64,000 nt of DNA. Origin: Myxosarcina sp. GI1. GTDB taxonomy: Bacteria; Cyanobacteriota; Cyanobacteriia; Cyanobacteriales; Xenococcaceae. The stretch is taken from assembly GCF_000756305.1 (NCBI RefSeq), contig NZ_JRFE01000010.1:83891-147890 (forward strand), given 5' to 3'. Below, piece after piece: positions 38,675 through 53,169 of the stretch. A program made the translations under genes and the position numbers. The notes beneath the pieces are model-generated. The model saw nothing but the letters and a program-made list of their open reading frames with translations, did no database searches and was not told the origin of the DNA. Numbering within the stretch: the stretch's first letter is position 1; every line of letters begins with the position of its first letter.

Positions 38675-41488
38675 ATGAACTCAAATCGAGAAAAAAAAAT
38701 ATCTGTCACTGACAGCGGTTCTCTATCTAAAGCCATAAAAGGGATTTCTTTGCCTTTAGTTTTAGTAGTGCCGTTTGTATTGCAAATTGTGGCTGCCGTA
38801 AGTATTACTGGTTATCTATCGTTTCGTAACGGACAAAAAGCAGTCAACGATCTAGCTACAGACTTACAGGAAGAAGTAAGCGATCGCGTATCTCTACATT
38901 TAGATAATTATTTGGCGACGGCAGAAAATATTGCTCGAATTAATGCTAGAGCGATCGAGCTAGGCATAATCGACCTATACGATTACAAAACCTCTGGACG
39001 CTATTTTTGGAATCAATTACAGGTACACCAAAATGTAGGATATATCGATTATCTCATCGTATCTACAGGAGAGTATGTTGGTGCGGGACGTTGGTTAGAA
39101 GGTGCTGGCGTAACTATCGACGAAATTTCACCAGAAACTAATTGGCAAGCCGACACTTTTTCTACCGATGATAGAGGAAATCGCCTAGAAGTTGTGGATG
39201 AGGCTGAATACAATCCGTTTGAGGAATCTTGGTATGCAGAAGTAGTAAAAGCCAAAAAACCAATTTGGAATGAGATTTATGCCTGGGATGGCTTTCCCGA
39301 TATTTTATCCGTTGCGATCACTTTTCCTATTTACAATCGAACCAATGAGTTAGTTGCTACCACGGGAGCCGATTTGCAGCTAAAAGGTATTAGCGAGTTT
39401 TTACGCGATATTGAAATTAGTCCTGCGGCTGAAGTAGTTATTTTCGAGCGGAATGGTGCGGTGGTTGCTAGCTCTATCGACGAACTACCATACAAAATGG
39501 TGGCAGAAGAAGCACAGCGACTTAATGTAGAAAACAGTAGCGATTCTATAGTTAAATCCACGGCTAAATTTTTAAAAACTAAATTTGGTAGTTTCCAAAA
39601 CATCGATGCTTCACAACAGCTTGAGTTTGAGATTGAAGGCGAACGTCATTTTACCCAAGTAACCCCCTGGCGAGATGAACTGGGTTTAGATTGGCTAGTA
39701 GTAGTGACCGTGCCAGAATCTGACTTTATGGCAAAAATTCACGCCAACAACCGCACTACAGTTTTGCTTTGCATCGCCTCTTTGTTAGTAGCAATTTTAA
39801 TAGGCAGTAGTACCTCTCGTTGGATAACCAAACCCATTCGTCGCTTGAGTGCTGCCAGTAGTGCGATCGCCAACGGAGATTTCGAGCGAGCTGTAAAAGT
39901 CAGAGGAGTCAACGAACTCAACGTTCTAGCCCAATCTTTCAATAGTATGACAGAGCAATTACGATATTCCTTCGCTCAATTAGATACAGCCAATAAAGAG
40001 TTAGAAAAAAATAATCAACAATTAGAAAATCGTGTTGACGAACGTACTCACGAACTACAGGTAGCCAAAGAAAAAGCCGAAGTAGCCAATAAAGCTAAAA
40101 GCACTTTTCTGGCAAACATGAGTCACGAATTGCGGACTCCTCTCAACGCTATTCTCGGCTTTACTCAAATTATGCAGCGAGACAAAACCGCATCGCGATC
40201 GCAGTTAGAAAATTTAGCCATTGTCAATCGCAGTGGCGAACATTTGCTAGCTCTAATCAACGATGTTTTAGATATGTCAAAAATCGAAGCGGGACGTATT
40301 ACTCTCAATCCCCACAGCTTCGACTTATATCGACTGCTCGACACTACTCAAGAAATGCTAGAGTTTAAAGCCGACGCTCAAAATTTACAGCTTTTATTCG
40401 ATAAGCATCCCGATACACCACGATATATTCGTACCGACGAACGCAAACTACGTCAGGTATTAATTAATTTACTCAACAACGCTCTTAAATTCACCTCCGA
40501 AGGTGGCGTAACTCTGCGGGTCAAACCAGATCTAGTAGATACCTATACTTTATTGTTTGAAATTGAAGACACTGGCGCGGGTATTGCCCCTGAAGAATTA
40601 GATACTCTCTTTGAAACTTTTACCCAAACCGAAACGGGCAGACAATCAGAAGAAGGAACGGGTTTGGGTTTACCTATCAGTCGTAAATTCGTGCAGTTGA
40701 TGGGGGGAGATATTGTCGTTAGCAGTCAATTGGGAATGGGAACGGTATTTAGATTCAATATCATCGCCAAACCCGCTCTTACAGAAGAACTTCAGCCGCA
40801 AAAACGCTACCAAAAAGTTATCGCTCTAGAACCCAACCAGCCCAATTATCGCATTTTAGTTGTAGACGATCGCTGGGAAAATCGCCAAATAGTCTTAAAA
40901 CTTCTCAAACCGATTGGCTTTGAAGTTAGAGAAGCCGTTAATGGTAAAGAAGCGATCGCTATATGGGAACAGTGGCAGCCCCATCTAATTTGGATGGATA
41001 TGCGGATGCCCGTCATGAACGGTTATGAAACCACCGAATACATCAAATCACACCTCAAAGGTCAGGCTACCTATATTATCGCTCTAACCGCATCTACCTT
41101 TGAGGAAGAGCAAGCCATCGTGCTATCGGCAGGATGTGATGACTTTGTTCGCAAACCATTTCGAGAGGAAGTTTTATTCGACAAGATGGCGGAATATTTG
41201 GGGGTTCGCTATATCTACGCCGAAAATACCGAATCGGAAGACATTCTAACCAATCTCAACTCCAATTTCGTTCTCGAACCTGCGGCGTTAACAATTATGC
41301 CTGGTGACTGGTTGGCTCGGCTAGAGCAAGCCGCTGCCGAACTGGACGAAGAGATCGTTGCAGAATTACTTCAGCAAATACCAGACAAACACGCTTTACT
41401 AGCAAGGGCACTGCAAGACAAAGTTAATGATTTTGATTTTGATGACATTGTCAAACTCGTGGAGCAAACAGTCAAAATTAAGAATTAA
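38675..41488 (+). CDS. Cache-HAMP hybrid sensor histidine kinase
   Basis: The 937-residue membrane kinase begins with a membrane segment at about 25-48. A large periplasmic dCache-like domain (about 60-350, ...[18 protein letters not shown]..., [16 protein letters not shown]-like strands) is followed by a second membrane segment near 365-385. HAMP ([23 protein letters not shown]), a coiled coil and HisKA with His484 in [13 protein letters not shown] come next. The ATPase has NNALKF, DTGAGI and GTGLGLPIS, and the REC domain carries phospho-Asp775 (LIWMDMRMP). A C-terminal helical tail ends it. It probably detects a small extracellular ligand and passes phosphate to the REC-GGDEF-EAL protein two bases downstream. 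Confidence 0.92.
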
Positions 41489-41490
41489 TA

Positions 41491-43356
41491 ATGAACAATA
41501 TTCTAGTTGTAGACGATATCGCGGATAATTTACGAGTTCTATCTGACACCCTCAACGAACGAGGTTATAAAGTTCGCTGTGCTAAAAACGGTGCTGTAGC
41601 TTTGAAAGTGGCACAGAAAATTACTCCCGATTTAATTTTGCTAGATATTAAAATGCCAGATATGGATGGCTATACGGTATGTCAAAAACTCAAAGCCAAT
41701 GCTGCCACCAAAGATATTCCCGTAATCTTTCTCAGTGCTTTAGATGATGTTTTGGATAAAGTTAGAGCTTTTGAAGTTGGAGGCGTAGACTATGTTACCA
41801 AACCTTTTCAAATCGAAGAAGTTTTGGCTAGAGTCAAAAATCAACTCGCTCTCCAGTCAGCCAAAGCAGAAATAACGCAGTTAAATCAGCAACTAGAACA
41901 AAAAATAAGCGATCGCACTGCTGAATTACGAGCGGCAAATCAAAAGTTAGAACTTATCAATCGCGAACTACAGCAAGAAATTAAAGAACGCCAAAAAGCC
42001 GAACAAAAGCTAATGCAAGATGCTCTGTATGATGGATTGACAGGACTACCCAATCGCAGCCTGTTAATGGATCGCATCGAGCGTTCTTTGCAAATTGCCA
42101 AACGCAATCCCGATTATCTTTTCGCCTTGCTGTTTATCGATCTCGATCGCTTTAAAATTATTAACGACAGTCAGGGTCATCTAGTAGGAGATCGCTTGCT
42201 AGTTGCCATCTCTAAATTATTAACCAAAAATCTACGCGATACCGATACTTTAGCGCGTCTAGGCGGCGATGAGTTTGTCATTTTACTCGATAACATCACA
42301 CACCTAAAAGATGCTACTATTGTTGGCGATCGCATCAATCAGCAACTGCAATCGACTTTTAACTTACAGGGTCAAACGGTTTTTACCAGTGCCAGTATTG
42401 GCATTGCTCTTAGTTCTACGGGTTATGAGAATAGTTCCGATATTTTACGCGATGCCGATATTGCTATGTATCGAGCCAAAGCTAAAGGAAAAGCCTGTTA
42501 TGAAGTATTCGATCGAGTTATGTACCTGGAAACGCTTAAGGCGATCGATCTAGAGCGCGATCTCCATCTAGCTTTGGAACGAAATGAATTTACCATGTTC
42601 TATCAACCAATCGTGTCTCTAACAGATGGAGCATTAGCGGGTTTTGAAGCTTTAATTCGTTGGCGACATCCAGAAAAAGGTTTAATTCATCCTGTAGATT
42701 TTGTCTCCGTTGCCGAAGATACGGGTCTGATAGTAGCGATTGGCGATTGGGTCATGACAGAAGCCTGTCGGCAACTCCGTATTTGGCAGCAAAATTTTGC
42801 CCATCTTCCTCGAATCGATTCATTAAAAATAAACGTCAATGTAGCCAGTCAACAAATACAAGAACCTAACTTCGTCAAAAAGTTAGAGCGAATTTTAGCC
42901 GAAACGGGTTTAGATGGTAGGTGTTTGAGATTGGAAATTATTGAAAGAGCATTAGTAGATTCGGGCAAAAAAACCTACAAGATTTTGACAGAAATTAAAC
43001 GCCGTCAAGTTAAGCTTAGTATCGATGATTTTGGTACTGGTTATTCATCTCTAAGTTATTTACAGCGTTTGCCAATAGACAATCTAAAAATCGATCGCTC
43101 TTTTGTCAGCAAACTCAATAGCGATCGCGAAAGCTTCGAGATTATTAAAACTATTATCACCTTGGCGCATACTCTTGGTATGGATACGATCGCTGAAGGA
43201 GTAGAAACTATCCAACAATTCAACCGACTGAGAAATTTAGATTGTAAATACGCACAGGGATACTTATTTGCCAAACCTACAAGTGCTAAAAAGCTCAAAT
43301 CCATGTTTGAGCTAGAATCGTTCCCGCATTTTCTTCAACTGAAGCAGCTTAAATAA
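41491..43356 (+). CDS. Response regulator with GGDEF and EAL domains
   Basis: A 621-residue protein starting two bases after the kinase stop, so surely co-translated. REC (residues 4-120, phospho-Asp in LILLDIKMPDMDG) is followed by a coiled coil. The GGDEF domain has the intact motif GGDEF at 258-262 and inhibitory RDTD site. The EAL domain has EALIRWRHP (Glu386), IDDFGTGYSSL, LKIDRSFV and AEGVET. Both synthesis and hydrolysis of c-di-GMP are possible; phosphorylation by the upstream kinase probably sets the balance. Confidence 0.93.
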   Translation: MNNILVVDDIADNLRVLSDTLNERGYKVRCAKNGAVALKVAQKITPDLILLDIKMPDMDGYTVCQKLKANAATKDIPVIFLSALDDVLDKVRAFEVGGVDYVTKPFQIEEVLARVKNQLALQSAKAEITQLNQQLEQKISDRTAELRAANQKLELINRELQQEIKERQKAEQKLMQDALYDGLTGLPNRSLLMDRIERSLQIAKRNPDYLFALLFIDLDRFKIINDSQGHLVGDRLLVAISKLLTKNLRDTDTLARLGGDEFVILLDNITHLKDATIVGDRINQQLQSTFNLQGQTVFTSASIGIALSSTGYENSSDILRDADIAMYRAKAKGKACYEVFDRVMYLETLKAIDLERDLHLALERNEFTMFYQPIVSLTDGALAGFEALIRWRHPEKGLIHPVDFVSVAEDTGLIVAIGDWVMTEACRQLRIWQQNFAHLPRIDSLKINVNVASQQIQEPNFVKKLERILAETGLDGRCLRLEIIERALVDSGKKTYKILTEIKRRQVKLSIDDFGTGYSSLSYLQRLPIDNLKIDRSFVSKLNSDRESFEIIKTIITLAHTLGMDTIAEGVETIQQFNRLRNLDCKYAQGYLFAKPTSAKKLKSMFELESFPHFLQLKQLK

Positions 43357-49055: not shown

Positions 49056-49553
<498 letters not shown>

Positions 49554-49702: not shown

Positions 49703-50269
49703 ATGACTCAAGATCGTTCTTTTATTGTTCGACCCAAACTTATTGGACGGGTTTTGCTAGAAGCCGATTTAGTTTCCCCTCCTCAACTCGATGTGGCATT
49801 ACACGATCGCCTTGCCTATCCCGATTTTCGTTTGGGAGAAATTTTGGCTATGCGAGGTTGGCTCAAGTCCGAAACTGCTGACTTTTTTGCTGAAGACTGG
49901 TTGGAATTAACGAGAAAACAAATTAGAAAGCCTCTCGGTTACTATTTACAAAAGTCGGCACTCTTAGAAACCAAACACATAGAAACCATATTAAAAGAAC
50001 ACAAACATACGGGAGTTCGCTTTGGTACCGTTGCCGTTCTTCAAGGATTACTTAAATCTAAAACACTCGATTTCTTTTTAACCTATTTATTTCCTCAAGA
50101 AGTCAATGCCTCACCTTTGTTAAGCAAACACCAGCCCAACTACAACATAGAGCAGCAATCTACTAGAGAAAATTCAAATCTCAAAGGCTTTGAGAATATT
50201 TATGAGAACCAAGAAAATATTTCTCTAACAGAATCTTTTGAAGAAACGGAAATAATCTGGATTGATTGA
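49703..50269 (+). CDS. Protein with two GspE N-terminal-like helical modules
   Basis: The 188-residue protein contains two related blocks. One reads RPKLIGRVLLEADLVSPPQLDVALHDR..RLGEILAMRGWLK (residues 10-55), the other KPLGYYLQKSALLETKHIETILKEHKHTGVRFGTVAVLQGLLK (75-120). Each resembles the helical N-terminal domain of type II secretion/pilus ATPases (GspE/PilB) that can bind c-di-GMP in some relatives. The C-terminal third is polar and likely disordered. It lies just before the REC-PAS-kinase gene in the same direction. Confidence 0.6.
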   Translation: MTQDRSFIVRPKLIGRVLLEADLVSPPQLDVALHDRLAYPDFRLGEILAMRGWLKSETADFFAEDWLELTRKQIRKPLGYYLQKSALLETKHIETILKEHKHTGVRFGTVAVLQGLLKSKTLDFFLTYLFPQEVNASPLLSKHQPNYNIEQQSTRENSNLKGFENIYENQENISLTESFEETEIIWID

Positions 50270-50369: not shown

Positions 50370-51890
50370 ATGTCTGAGCTACGAATACTGATAATTGATG
50401 ATAATCCCGACGACCGCTTATTAGTTCTACGAGAACTGAAGCGCATTTTTCCTGAGCTTAAATATTGGGAAATTAATGAAAATGCTAGCCTGGCTCTAGC
50501 ACTACAGGCAAATGACTTCAATTTTGTCGTCACCGATTATCAACTTTGCTGGACGACGGGAATAGATATTTTACACACTATCAAACAGCAACAACCAGAG
50601 TGTCCTGTAATTATGTTTACTGGAACTGGTAGCGAAGAAGTTGCGGTTCGAGCTATGAAAGCTGGACTTGATGATTACATAATCAAGACTTCTTTACACT
50701 ATGCTAAGTTAGCGGCCGCAGTCGGCTCTATTTGGAATAAAATAAACCAGCAACAAGCTCTATCAGAACTAAAGCAGCGATACGATCGCCTTTTCGAGCG
50801 CGCACCAGTAGGACTATATCGCCTCAATCCTCAAGGAGAAATTTTAGAAGCTAATTCAACCTTAGTCAAAATGTTTGGCTATAAAAGTCGAGAAGAATTA
50901 TTAAACTGCAATTTATCTAAGTTTTATTTAAATTACCAACAAGAACGAGATTGGCAAAAACAGTTAGAAGAAGATGTCGCAATTGAAAATTTTGAAGTCC
51001 AGGCTCGCTGTCAAAATGGCAAAACTATTTTATTGAGACATAATGCTATCGCTGTCAAAAATTTGACTGGTGAAATCATTTATTATGAAGGCGCGGTTGA
51101 AGACATAACCATTTACCACCAAGCAGAGCGCGAGCGGGCAGAATTATTACAGCGCGAACGCCAAGCTAGAGAAGAAGCCGAAATTGCTAACTCCCTAAAA
51201 AACAAACTTTTTGCTACTCTTTCTCGCGAGTTGCGAACTCCCTTAAATGCTGTATTGGGTTGGGTACAGCTATTAAGTAGTGGTCAGCTTGCTGGCGAGC
51301 AAACGCAAAAGGCAATAAAAATCATCGAACGTAATGCTAAAACTCAACATCAACTAATCGAGCGTTCGCTAGACGTGGCTAGAGTCATTCGCGGCGATTT
51401 AAAATTAATCTGGTTGCCAGTGCCACTCTCAGCAACAATATCTATGGCGATCGATAGCGTTAGACTGCTAGCTGAGGCAAAACAAATCGAATTACAGCCA
51501 GACTTAAAGCAAGATTCAGCAGAAATTGATGGCGATCCGCAACGCCTACAGCAAGTGTTCTGGAATTTGTTGACTAATGCAATTAAATTTAGCCCTCCTG
51601 GAAGCAAAGTTAGTATAACTCTCAAAAAACTTAGCGATCGCGTTCGGGTTAGCGTATCTGATTCTGGTAAGGGAATTTCACCTGACGATCTACCTTACAT
51701 TTTCGTTCGCTTTGGTAAAACTCAGTTCGAGTTTACAGAAACAGAATCGGAGTCAAGTTTGGGTTTTGGACTAGTAGTCGCACGTTACTTAGTAGAACTT
51801 CATGGCGGCATAATTGTAGCTCGCAGCGAAGGAATGGACAGAGGAGCGACTTTTATTGTTGAATTGCCACTTAGAGGATATGAGATCTAA
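50370..51890 (+). CDS. REC-PAS histidine kinase-like protein with H-box His changed to Arg
   Basis: The 506-residue protein has a receiver domain (ILIIDDNPDD, Asp in FVVTDYQLCW), a PAS domain (about 138-250, RAPVGLYRLNPQGEILEANST), a coiled coil and a histidine-kinase core. The ATPase half looks intact (NLLTNAIKF, DSGKGIS, LGFGLVVAR). The H-box reads [14 protein letters not shown], so residue 286 is Arg (CGC) where the family has the phosphoacceptor His (CAC). It should not autophosphorylate in the normal way. It may be a pseudokinase, a REC-controlled ATPase or scaffold, or a recent mutant. Confidence 0.85.
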   Translation: MSELRILIIDDNPDDRLLVLRELKRIFPELKYWEINENASLALALQANDFNFVVTDYQLCWTTGIDILHTIKQQQPECPVIMFTGTGSEEVAVRAMKAGLDDYIIKTSLHYAKLAAAVGSIWNKINQQQALSELKQRYDRLFERAPVGLYRLNPQGEILEANSTLVKMFGYKSREELLNCNLSKFYLNYQQERDWQKQLEEDVAIENFEVQARCQNGKTILLRHNAIAVKNLTGEIIYYEGAVEDITIYHQAERERAELLQRERQAREEAEIANSLKNKLFATLSRELRTPLNAVLGWVQLLSSGQLAGEQTQKAIKIIERNAKTQHQLIERSLDVARVIRGDLKLIWLPVPLSATISMAIDSVRLLAEAKQIELQPDLKQDSAEIDGDPQRLQQVFWNLLTNAIKFSPPGSKVSITLKKLSDRVRVSVSDSGKGISPDDLPYIFVRFGKTQFEFTETESESSLGFGLVVARYLVELHGGIIVARSEGMDRGATFIVELPLRGYEI

Positions 51891-51989
51891 TAAATAAATA
51901 AATGGGCATTGTATAGTTGCGGGCTAATAAGGCGAAAAGAAGACGGGGAGACTGAAAAGATTTTACTCTACAGGGCGCAGAACTGTGCC

Positions 51990-52046
51990 GCATCGCTTCT
52001 GCGGCGCGACTTGGCTTCTTTGAAGCCTGCTTCGATTAAGCGATGC
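51990..52046. repeat. Palindromic repeat cluster upstream of tRNA-Gln
   Basis: GCATCGCTT (51990-51998) pairs with AAGCGATGC (52038-52046). Inside is a perfect 15-base hairpin, GGCTTC-TTT-GAAGCC. It belongs to the same GC-rich palindromic style seen elsewhere in the window. The gap 51891-52122 holds no coding gene that I can support. Confidence 0.7.
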
Positions 52047-52122
52047 CAGGCAGAAGCTTGCTACCGTCCCCTAGTCAGCCTAAACCATTCTATGATAATG
52101 CAATGCCAATAGACTATGTTAA

Positions 52123-52194
52123 CTGGGGTGCTAGGATTCGAACCTAGGAATGGCGAGACCAAAACCCGCTGCCTTACCGCTTGGCGACACCCCA
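52123..52194 (-). tRNA. tRNA-Gln (anticodon TTG)
   Basis: The minus strand gives acceptor TGGGGTG/CACCCCA, anticodon stem GCGGG/CTCGC with loop TTTTGGT (anticodon TTG), and T-arm CCTAGGTTCGAATCCTAG. The discriminator is G and CCA is not encoded. Confidence 0.95.
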
Positions 52195-52263
52195 ATATCT
52201 GCCTTAAATATATTAACAATAATATAGGGAAAATTGTCAACTATAAAGTCCAAAAAAATCATT

Positions 52264-53169
52264 TTACAGACTGTCACGGATTTGAGCGATCGCACGTTGG
52301 GCTGCATCTCTAATAGAAGCTAGATTGGATTCTCGTTCGCCATATAAATGAGGATACATAATAGCTCTAGAACTGTTAATAACCGCTCCCAAACCATCGG
52401 AGTTAAAACAAGCCTGAATTCCAGCTTTACTTCCACCTTGAGCACCTATACCAGGAACGAGAAAAAAGCTATTGGGCAGTTGCGATCGCAAGCGACAGGC
52501 GGCATCGGGATGAGTCGCGCCTACGACAGCCCCAATACTGCTATAGCCGTTACTTCCCAGACTTTTTTCTGCTTCATCTCGTACTAAATCGCCAACAATT
52601 TCATATAAATAGCGATCGCCAATCGTACAATCTTGAACTACCGCTCCGCCAGGATTAGATGTTTTTACACAGACAAAAATTCCTTTCCCCCAGTTATTCG
52701 CTTCGGAGATAAATGGCTCCAGGCAATCGGTTCCCAAATAAGGCACGATAGTCAAAGCGTCTGCTTCTAAGGGTGGTGACGGCTGACTGGGAAGATAGCT
52801 TTTAGCGTAAGCTTCGGCTGTAGAAGCAATATCACCACGTTTGGCATCCAATATTATTAGTAATCCTCGCTCGCGTGCTGCCACGATAGTTTTTTCTAAT
52901 GCCCGAAATCCTTCAGCCCCAAAAAGCTCGTAATAAGCACACTGAGGTTTGACCGCAGGTACGAGATCGGCAACTGCCTCTAAAACCATTAAATTGTACT
53001 GATAAATTGCTTCGGCGCATTGAGCAGCGGTGCTGTAGCGATCGATTTGCTGTTGGGTAAGAAACCAAGGAGGCATTTTGCTTAGAGATGGATCTAAACC
53101 TACGATAAAAGGAGTATTTTTGGCTTTAATTTGCTCGATCAGGCGGTCTACAAACATTTTTTTTGACAT
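52264..53169 (-). CDS. pyrF: Orotidine 5'-phosphate decarboxylase
   Basis: The 301-residue enzyme makes UMP from OMP, the last step of pyrimidine synthesis. It is of the type 2 (longer) PyrF subfamily: FIVGLDPSLSKMP, VKPQCAYYELFG, the catalytic LIILDAKRGDIASTAEAYA and VPGIGAQGG phosphate loop. The length is normal for this group. It is alone, divergent from glmM. Confidence 0.94.
   Translation of the reverse strand: MSKKMFVDRLIEQIKAKNTPFIVGLDPSLSKMPPWFLTQQQIDRYSTAAQCAEAIYQYNLMVLEAVADLVPAVKPQCAYYELFGAEGFRALEKTIVAARERGLLIILDAKRGDIASTAEAYAKSYLPSQPSPPLEADALTIVPYLGTDCLEPFISEANNWGKGIFVCVKTSNPGGAVVQDCTIGDRYLYEIVGDLVRDEAEKSLGSNGYSSIGAVVGATHPDAACRLRSQLPNSFFLVPGIGAQGGSKAGIQACFNSDGLGAVINSSRAIMYPHLYGERESNLASIRDAAQRAIAQIRDSL

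Follow-up and report, generated by a model that had tools for sequence, protein, structure and literature searches.

A Rec-controlled histidine kinase without its phosphoacceptor histidine in Myxosarcina sp. GI1: probably a dead kinase, either kept for switchable binding or in slow decay

In a 64,000-nucleotide stretch of the Myxosarcina sp. GI1 genome, hereafter the window, we analysed a gene of domain order REC-PAS-HisKA-HATPase in which the phosphoacceptor histidine of the kinase core is replaced by arginine. The reading frame is open, the catalytic residues of the N-terminal receiver are kept, further changes are clustered in the kinase core, and the genes of the cluster found around its relatives do not adjoin it. 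The product is probably a dead kinase, which either has been retained as a partner whose binding can be switched or is in slow decay. A more specific reading, in our judgement evenly balanced between right and wrong, is that of a lineage-specific pseudokinase that arose from a Rec-controlled histidine kinase (Rec-HK), with the receiver as its input and a DHp/CA output that would act by binding, by analogy with DivL.

The gene (50370-51890, + strand) encodes 506 amino acids without stop or frameshift and lies on contig 10 of a genome of 7.07 Mb in 76 contigs. All four domains scored above the Pfam cut-offs, with E-values of 3.9e-16 for Response_reg, 8.5e-13 for HisKA and 2.7e-26 for HATPase_c; the features are compiled in Table 1. 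The acidic pair, Asp, Thr/Ser and Lys of a Rec-HK receiver are all present, as is the helical connection from receiver to core (predicted helix 110-144, PAS and predicted helix 247-303). Along with its HisKA and HATPase_c domains, the core matched the folds of HK853 (TMt up to 0.86) and DivL (TMt 0.75-0.76), and a retained fold is predicted from the model, which had a mean pLDDT of 84.7 and a pTM of 0.47, with the ATP lid (residues 448-463) below 50. Structure prediction was rejected as a test of activity: the model of the His-bearing relative L002 (mean pLDDT 84.5, pTM 0.44, lid 449-461 below 50) was nearly equal in predicted secondary structure and confidence, as compared without superposition, and the two lids were equally uncertain.

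Table 1. Features of the kinase gene and its immediate neighbours, in window positions
Feature	Positions	Strand	Basis
REC-PAS-HisKA-HATPase gene, Rec-controlled histidine kinase without phosphoacceptor	50370..51890	+	ORF translation, Pfam
N-terminal receiver domain, residues 1-118; D10, D11, D56, T84, K106 present	50370..50723	+	Pfam, near-invariant column count
Receiver phosphoacceptor Asp56, codon GAT	50535..50537	+	
PAS domain, about residues 132-250	50763..51119	+	Pfam
DHp (HisKA) two-helix region, about residues 262-342	51153..51395	+	Pfam, predicted structure
KNKLF versus family KDEFL, just 5' of the H box (D278N, E279K, F280L, L281F)	51198..51212	+	alignment
Arg286 (CGC) at the phosphoacceptor His position	51225..51227	+	translation, alignment
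CA (HATPase_c) domain, residues 343-501	51396..51872	+	Pfam
N box NLLTNAIKF, kept	51564..51590	+	alignment
G1 box DSGKGI, kept except T432S	51660..51677	+	column count
F box and start of ATP lid, IFVRFGK; 1-2 extra residues after FVRF versus relatives	51699..51719	+	alignment
G2 box SSLGFGL versus GGLGLGL (G463S, L466F)	51753..51773	+	alignment, column count
Upstream 188-aa protein, PilB/MshE-N-like modules; neighbour probably unrelated	49703..50269	+	profile search
tRNA-Gln (ttg), downstream neighbour	52122..52195	-	

The first-pass annotation had placed Arg at the phosphoacceptor position, and the translation bears this out: residue 286 is Arg, encoded by CGC at 51225-51227 within LKNKLFATLSRELRTPL, and the H-box His that serves HisKA enzymes and Rec-HKs as phosphoacceptor is absent. 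The comparison of this codon in relatives, which had been suggested as a check, returned His in all 15 homologues (E <= 1e-100; 388 genomes of the order). In the available parts of two studies the H-box His is required for normal autophosphorylation of HisKA kinases (PMC9491836, PMC5727384), and by this established chemistry, carried over from other kinases, the core would be unable to autophosphorylate in the normal way. The motif RELRT retains both E287 and T290 of E-x-x-T. Between residues 251 and 326 there is no His that could stand in as acceptor, the nearest in the chain being 250 and 327; H327 was considered as a replacement and rejected, as it lies on helix 2 in a column that is not His in 15/15 relatives. 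Among 40 core matches (E <= 1e-5, window core as query), drawn from the loci around the 15 kinase relatives and around the upstream gene's relatives together with the window, 39 carry His and the window gene alone carries Arg.

The homologue search covered four overlapping genome sets: one of 60 related genomes, and one each at the level of the order (388), the family (27) and the phylum (386). The genus is represented in them by the window's genome alone. The 15 other genomes with a homologue yielded the direct homologues of the window protein, which are kinases of the same order with REC-PAS-HisKA-HATPase(-REC) architecture beside Rcp1-like receivers, 40-58% identical to it; the nearest are 53-54% identical over the full length, and 58% was reached over one contig-cut fragment. 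The shared domain order was established by Pfam for L002, L003 and L004 and by alignment for the rest. They differ from the window protein in their His and, in 11 of the 15, in a further C-terminal REC that extends them to about 650 aa (by Pfam on L003, by length for the others); L002, L004 and L006 share the short form of the window protein, and L007 is cut at a contig end. A remnant of such a C-terminal REC was searched for in 51881-52300, with chance-level matches only (best E 0.16). A link between the loss of this domain and the loss of His was rejected, given that the nearest relative, L002, lacks the domain too. Within the family the kinase is patchy, being present in 4/27 genomes (E <= 1e-90).

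Arg at this position is rare well beyond the homologues. When the H box was searched for as a degenerate DNA pattern, the version with a His codon occurred 1230 times in the 60 related genomes, any frame being counted, and its Arg (CGN) counterpart three times (G000, G039 and G051), the window's occurrence alone lying in a kinase-like frame. Over the 388 genomes the Arg pattern, which covers CGN codons and misses AGR codons and other H-box wordings, was found 11 times, four of them in kinase-like frames (the window, L045, L047 and L050) and seven not. The G2 boxes of L045, L047 and L050 are kept and read GGSGLGL, GSGLGL and GSSGMGL, and judged from their sequences these three look like simpler losses than the window kinase; the source genome of L045 is 61% complete.

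Beyond the H box, the annotation had called the protein intact, ATPase motifs included, which the alignment contradicts. Of 81 near-invariant core columns (at least 90% constant; comparison with 25 other rows), 16 are changed in the window protein, among them one in the ATP lid and the leading Gly of G2, versus 0-7 of 31-81 in each of the other rows. The departures in DHp are D278N, E279K, F280L, L281F, H286R, D332R and I339V, and those in CA are T408S, G412S, T432S, R459E, G463S, L466F, A469V, I470V and V471A; some, such as T432S, I339V and I470V, are mild, and others are not. Near G2, Arg459 and Gly463 are constant in 24/24 other rows and are Glu and Ser here, and by alignment the lid has 1-2 extra residues; what remains is the N box, the G1 box and two of the three G2 glycines. 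None of the 13 near-invariant columns of REC is changed, and two of the four in PAS are. A stricter count over 14 relatives and strictly constant columns, from which L007 was dropped on account of the contig end that cuts it, gave 10/59 changed core columns for the window protein versus 0-3 of 49-52 for each relative; the REC counts were 3/35 for the window protein, the same for L005, and 0-2 for the remaining relatives. Because other family-constant core residues have changed together with the His, a pseudokinase fits better than a lone loss or an error. Of the two options that had been offered at the outset, a recent loss or a pseudokinase, these several changed residues thus favour the latter and speak against a lone recent loss.

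The uneven change is also seen in branch lengths. With topology and gamma shape fixed, the terminal branch of the window protein makes up 14.2% of the core tree length versus 6.3% of the REC+PAS length, a ratio of 2.26 (bootstrap 1.41-3.42, 0/60 replicates <=1). Taken alone this is not proof, because like ratios are shown by the His-bearing L003 (1.90, 0/60 replicates <=1) and by L008, whose very short branch leaves its value of 3.46 poorly fixed (2/60 replicates <=1). In 5/5 near-relative comparisons, each of which pools the window branch with that of the relative, divergence was greater at third than at first and second codon positions in every domain, and the window kinase frame has therefore been under coding constraint.

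At the loci of the relatives, a larger histidine kinase is found in the cluster in 12/15 cases and an Rcp1-like single receiver in 11/15; across L101-L114 the cluster comprises these two and the REC-PAS-HK(-REC) gene in varying order. The receiver domain itself was identified by Pfam, and the name Rcp1 is one we presume for these proteins; the larger kinase of L112, the one checked, consists of REC, PAS, GAF, HisKA and HATPase (Pfam). Absence is uninformative at L101 and L103, where the contig ends inside the cluster, and at L115, whose contig stops 0.9 kb short of the gene on its upstream side; at L109 the cluster kinase is present and the Rcp absent. The clusters of L108 and L110 contain, between the other genes, an additional kinase of the SHDL type that is related to the window protein.

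Neither the larger kinase nor an Rcp-like gene adjoins the window gene, whose neighbours encode an SH3-domain protein, the 188-aa protein and tRNA-Gln. The best Rcp match in its own genome is 42% identical. Identity between the two nearest Rcps there and the 11 cluster Rcps is 37-45%, against 54-91% among the cluster Rcps, and for the L112 cluster kinase the best own-genome match extends over the core only (48%). Because the cluster genes are not adjoining and the genome's own Rcps are only distantly similar, the window gene has probably been orphaned, its cluster lost or left behind. Being orphaned is not enough to account for the missing His, since L104, where both cluster genes are missing in the stretch extracted, keeps this residue.

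Such a history also suits the main rival to the pseudokinase reading, namely that the gene, away from its cluster partners, is decaying towards a pseudogene, the core first and with no function left, which we hold to be rather unlikely. Decay would account for core changes that are clustered and hit otherwise invariant residues, faster change of the core being expected under it, and it agrees with the missing adjoining cluster genes, with the lack of a close Rcp in the genome and with the patchy presence in the family (4/27 genomes). Against it stand 506 open codons without stop or frameshift, the greater conservation of first and second over third codon positions in all domains (relatives' branches included), and the kept REC catalytic residues and N and G1 boxes.

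Two described systems frame the pseudokinase reading. Rec-HKs are a recognised class in which an N-terminal REC controls the kinase, for example Leptospira LvrB, whose switch was described structurally only in 2026; in the available portion of that report, phosphorylation of REC leads the linking helices to form a coiled coil and one CA domain is freed, the activation coming from the upstream kinase LvrA (PMC13269768). A receiver governing an acceptor-less core had been called unusual at first pass: this holds for the missing acceptor and does not hold for control by REC, which defines this class in the same partial source (PMC13269768). As far as that portion describes LvrB, the window protein resembles it in the N-terminal REC, the long helix towards the HisKA/HATPase core and the Asp56 acceptor, and the kinase that adjoins the gene in most relatives recalls the LvrB-LvrA pair; it differs in the PAS between REC and DHp and in lacking an acceptor His, which in LvrB is H161. 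The LvrB structure 8vc9 was among the first whole-chain fold matches, with a low TM and a large rmsd that indicate shared domains and no superposition.

DivL, in the parts of its report at our disposal, has Tyr for the His and binds a phosphorylated regulator without kinase or phosphatase activity (PMC4211667). The window core matches its structure 4q20 in sequence (E 1.3e-22), and the likeness extends, within those parts, to a HisKA-type core with the acceptor His replaced and a PAS upstream (PMC4211667). As in a DivL-type protein, the acceptor is replaced with no other His between 250 and 327; conservation of the replacement across orthologues was not found, as 15/15 relatives have His. DivL carries Tyr and retains its N, G1, F and G2 boxes, whereas the window protein carries Arg with a changed ATP lid and G2; DivL is moreover alphaproteobacterial, and the available text describes no fused REC for it (PMC4211667). 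The window protein is thus neither a functioning Rec-HK, having no His, nor a DivL orthologue. A pseudokinase variant of ChrS is alike in that a dead kinase still affects a paralogous system, with heterodimers proposed, and differs in being a laboratory frameshift in the CA domain of another kinase that keeps its His, as far as the accessible part of that study goes (PMC9491836).

Among the papers listed by searches of the open-licence literature, no report of a cyanobacterial or Rec-controlled pseudo-histidine kinase was found. To our knowledge, few pseudo-histidine kinases have had their role worked out.

In the relatives, phosphate is presumably received on the N-terminal REC, which would then switch the kinase core. 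Phosphate entry at the receiver is expected for the window protein as well, because the catalytic residues of its receiver are retained. Asp56 would be phosphorylated by a different kinase of the same cell; the stalk of REC, helix and PAS might then alter the DHp-CA dimer, in the manner of LvrB, and the output would be protein binding in place of phosphotransfer, as in DivL, with a response regulator or kinase docked on DHp or in the form of inactive heterodimers. We infer, in short, a protein that is made, is phosphorylated on REC and acts by binding.

A stronger version is possible but doubtful: a natural Rec-controlled pseudokinase whose receiver is the sole remaining phosphorylation site and whose dead-kinase module is a phosphorylation-switched dimer that binds two-component proteins. 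If true, the protein would in effect be a response regulator with a dead kinase as effector domain; a Rec-HK with a receiver but without an acceptor would split the sensing of phosphate from its passing on, and would show a route from enzyme to response-regulator-like adaptor after departure from a gene cluster. The putative pseudokinase is a single-lineage case, known from sequence.

Phosphatase activity exists in some kinases without His, and it is conceivable, though improbable, that the kinase function alone was lost and that Glu287 and Thr290 dephosphorylate a response regulator under control of REC. The retained E-x-x-T residues of RELRT agree with this, the E/DxxT/N motif being one that affects phosphatase activity in the available part of one study; that same part implicates the conserved His itself in dephosphorylation (PMC5727384), and the ATP lid, the G2 Gly and the residues before the H box have changed as well. 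Still less probable, indeed very unlikely, is one half of a heterodimer in which the CA domain, still binding ATP, transfers phosphate in trans to the His of an intact partner kinase under control of REC. Retention of the N box, the G1 box and all but one of the three G2 glycines would permit it, and the four closest kinases of the same genome, 40-48% identical over the matched part, could supply partners, but Arg459 and Gly463, constant in 24/24 rows elsewhere, and DHp residues are changed, and no partner kinase is co-located. A sequencing or assembly error at 51226 as sole explanation was rejected as exceedingly unlikely: although the assembly is single and CGC lies one transition from CAC, the Arg is accompanied by 15 further near-invariant core departures, which is beyond one base error; an error at this base in addition to real changes elsewhere is a remote possibility.

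The 188-aa protein encoded upstream had been read as carrying GspE-N-like modules and as a possible partner of the kinase. The modules were recovered, a profile of 14 sequences matching PilF (E 2e-10), the N-domain of MshE (2e-7) and PilB chains (about 1e-5); Pfam gave no match on the 188-aa protein, and two of three own-genome relatives had a weak, below-cut-off match to DUF4388. Some PDB entries matched by the profile are named c-di-GMP-binding. The family is multi-copy, with seven matches in the window's own genome, occurs in 43/60 genomes and is also found inside longer proteins. No copy of the window kinase stood beside relatives of the upstream gene in the eight loci extracted, a small part of the matches; other kinases lay at 3.4 kb (L118) and at 0.9 kb with one gene between (L121). 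Because this family is so widespread and multi-copy, while the kinase occurs in only 4/27 genomes of the family, a specific partnership is unsupported and was set aside.

Other two-component genes occur in the same genome. On contig 16 (L142, 26500-33500) kinases alternate with Rcp-like receivers, and the three kinase frames examined there have SHDLQ or AHDLQ H boxes. In the window itself, 38675-43356 holds a hybrid histidine kinase and, directly after it, a gene that reads by eye as REC-GGDEF-EAL, and the short protein encoded at 49056-49553 combines an SH3_3 domain with a Glu-Pro repeat.
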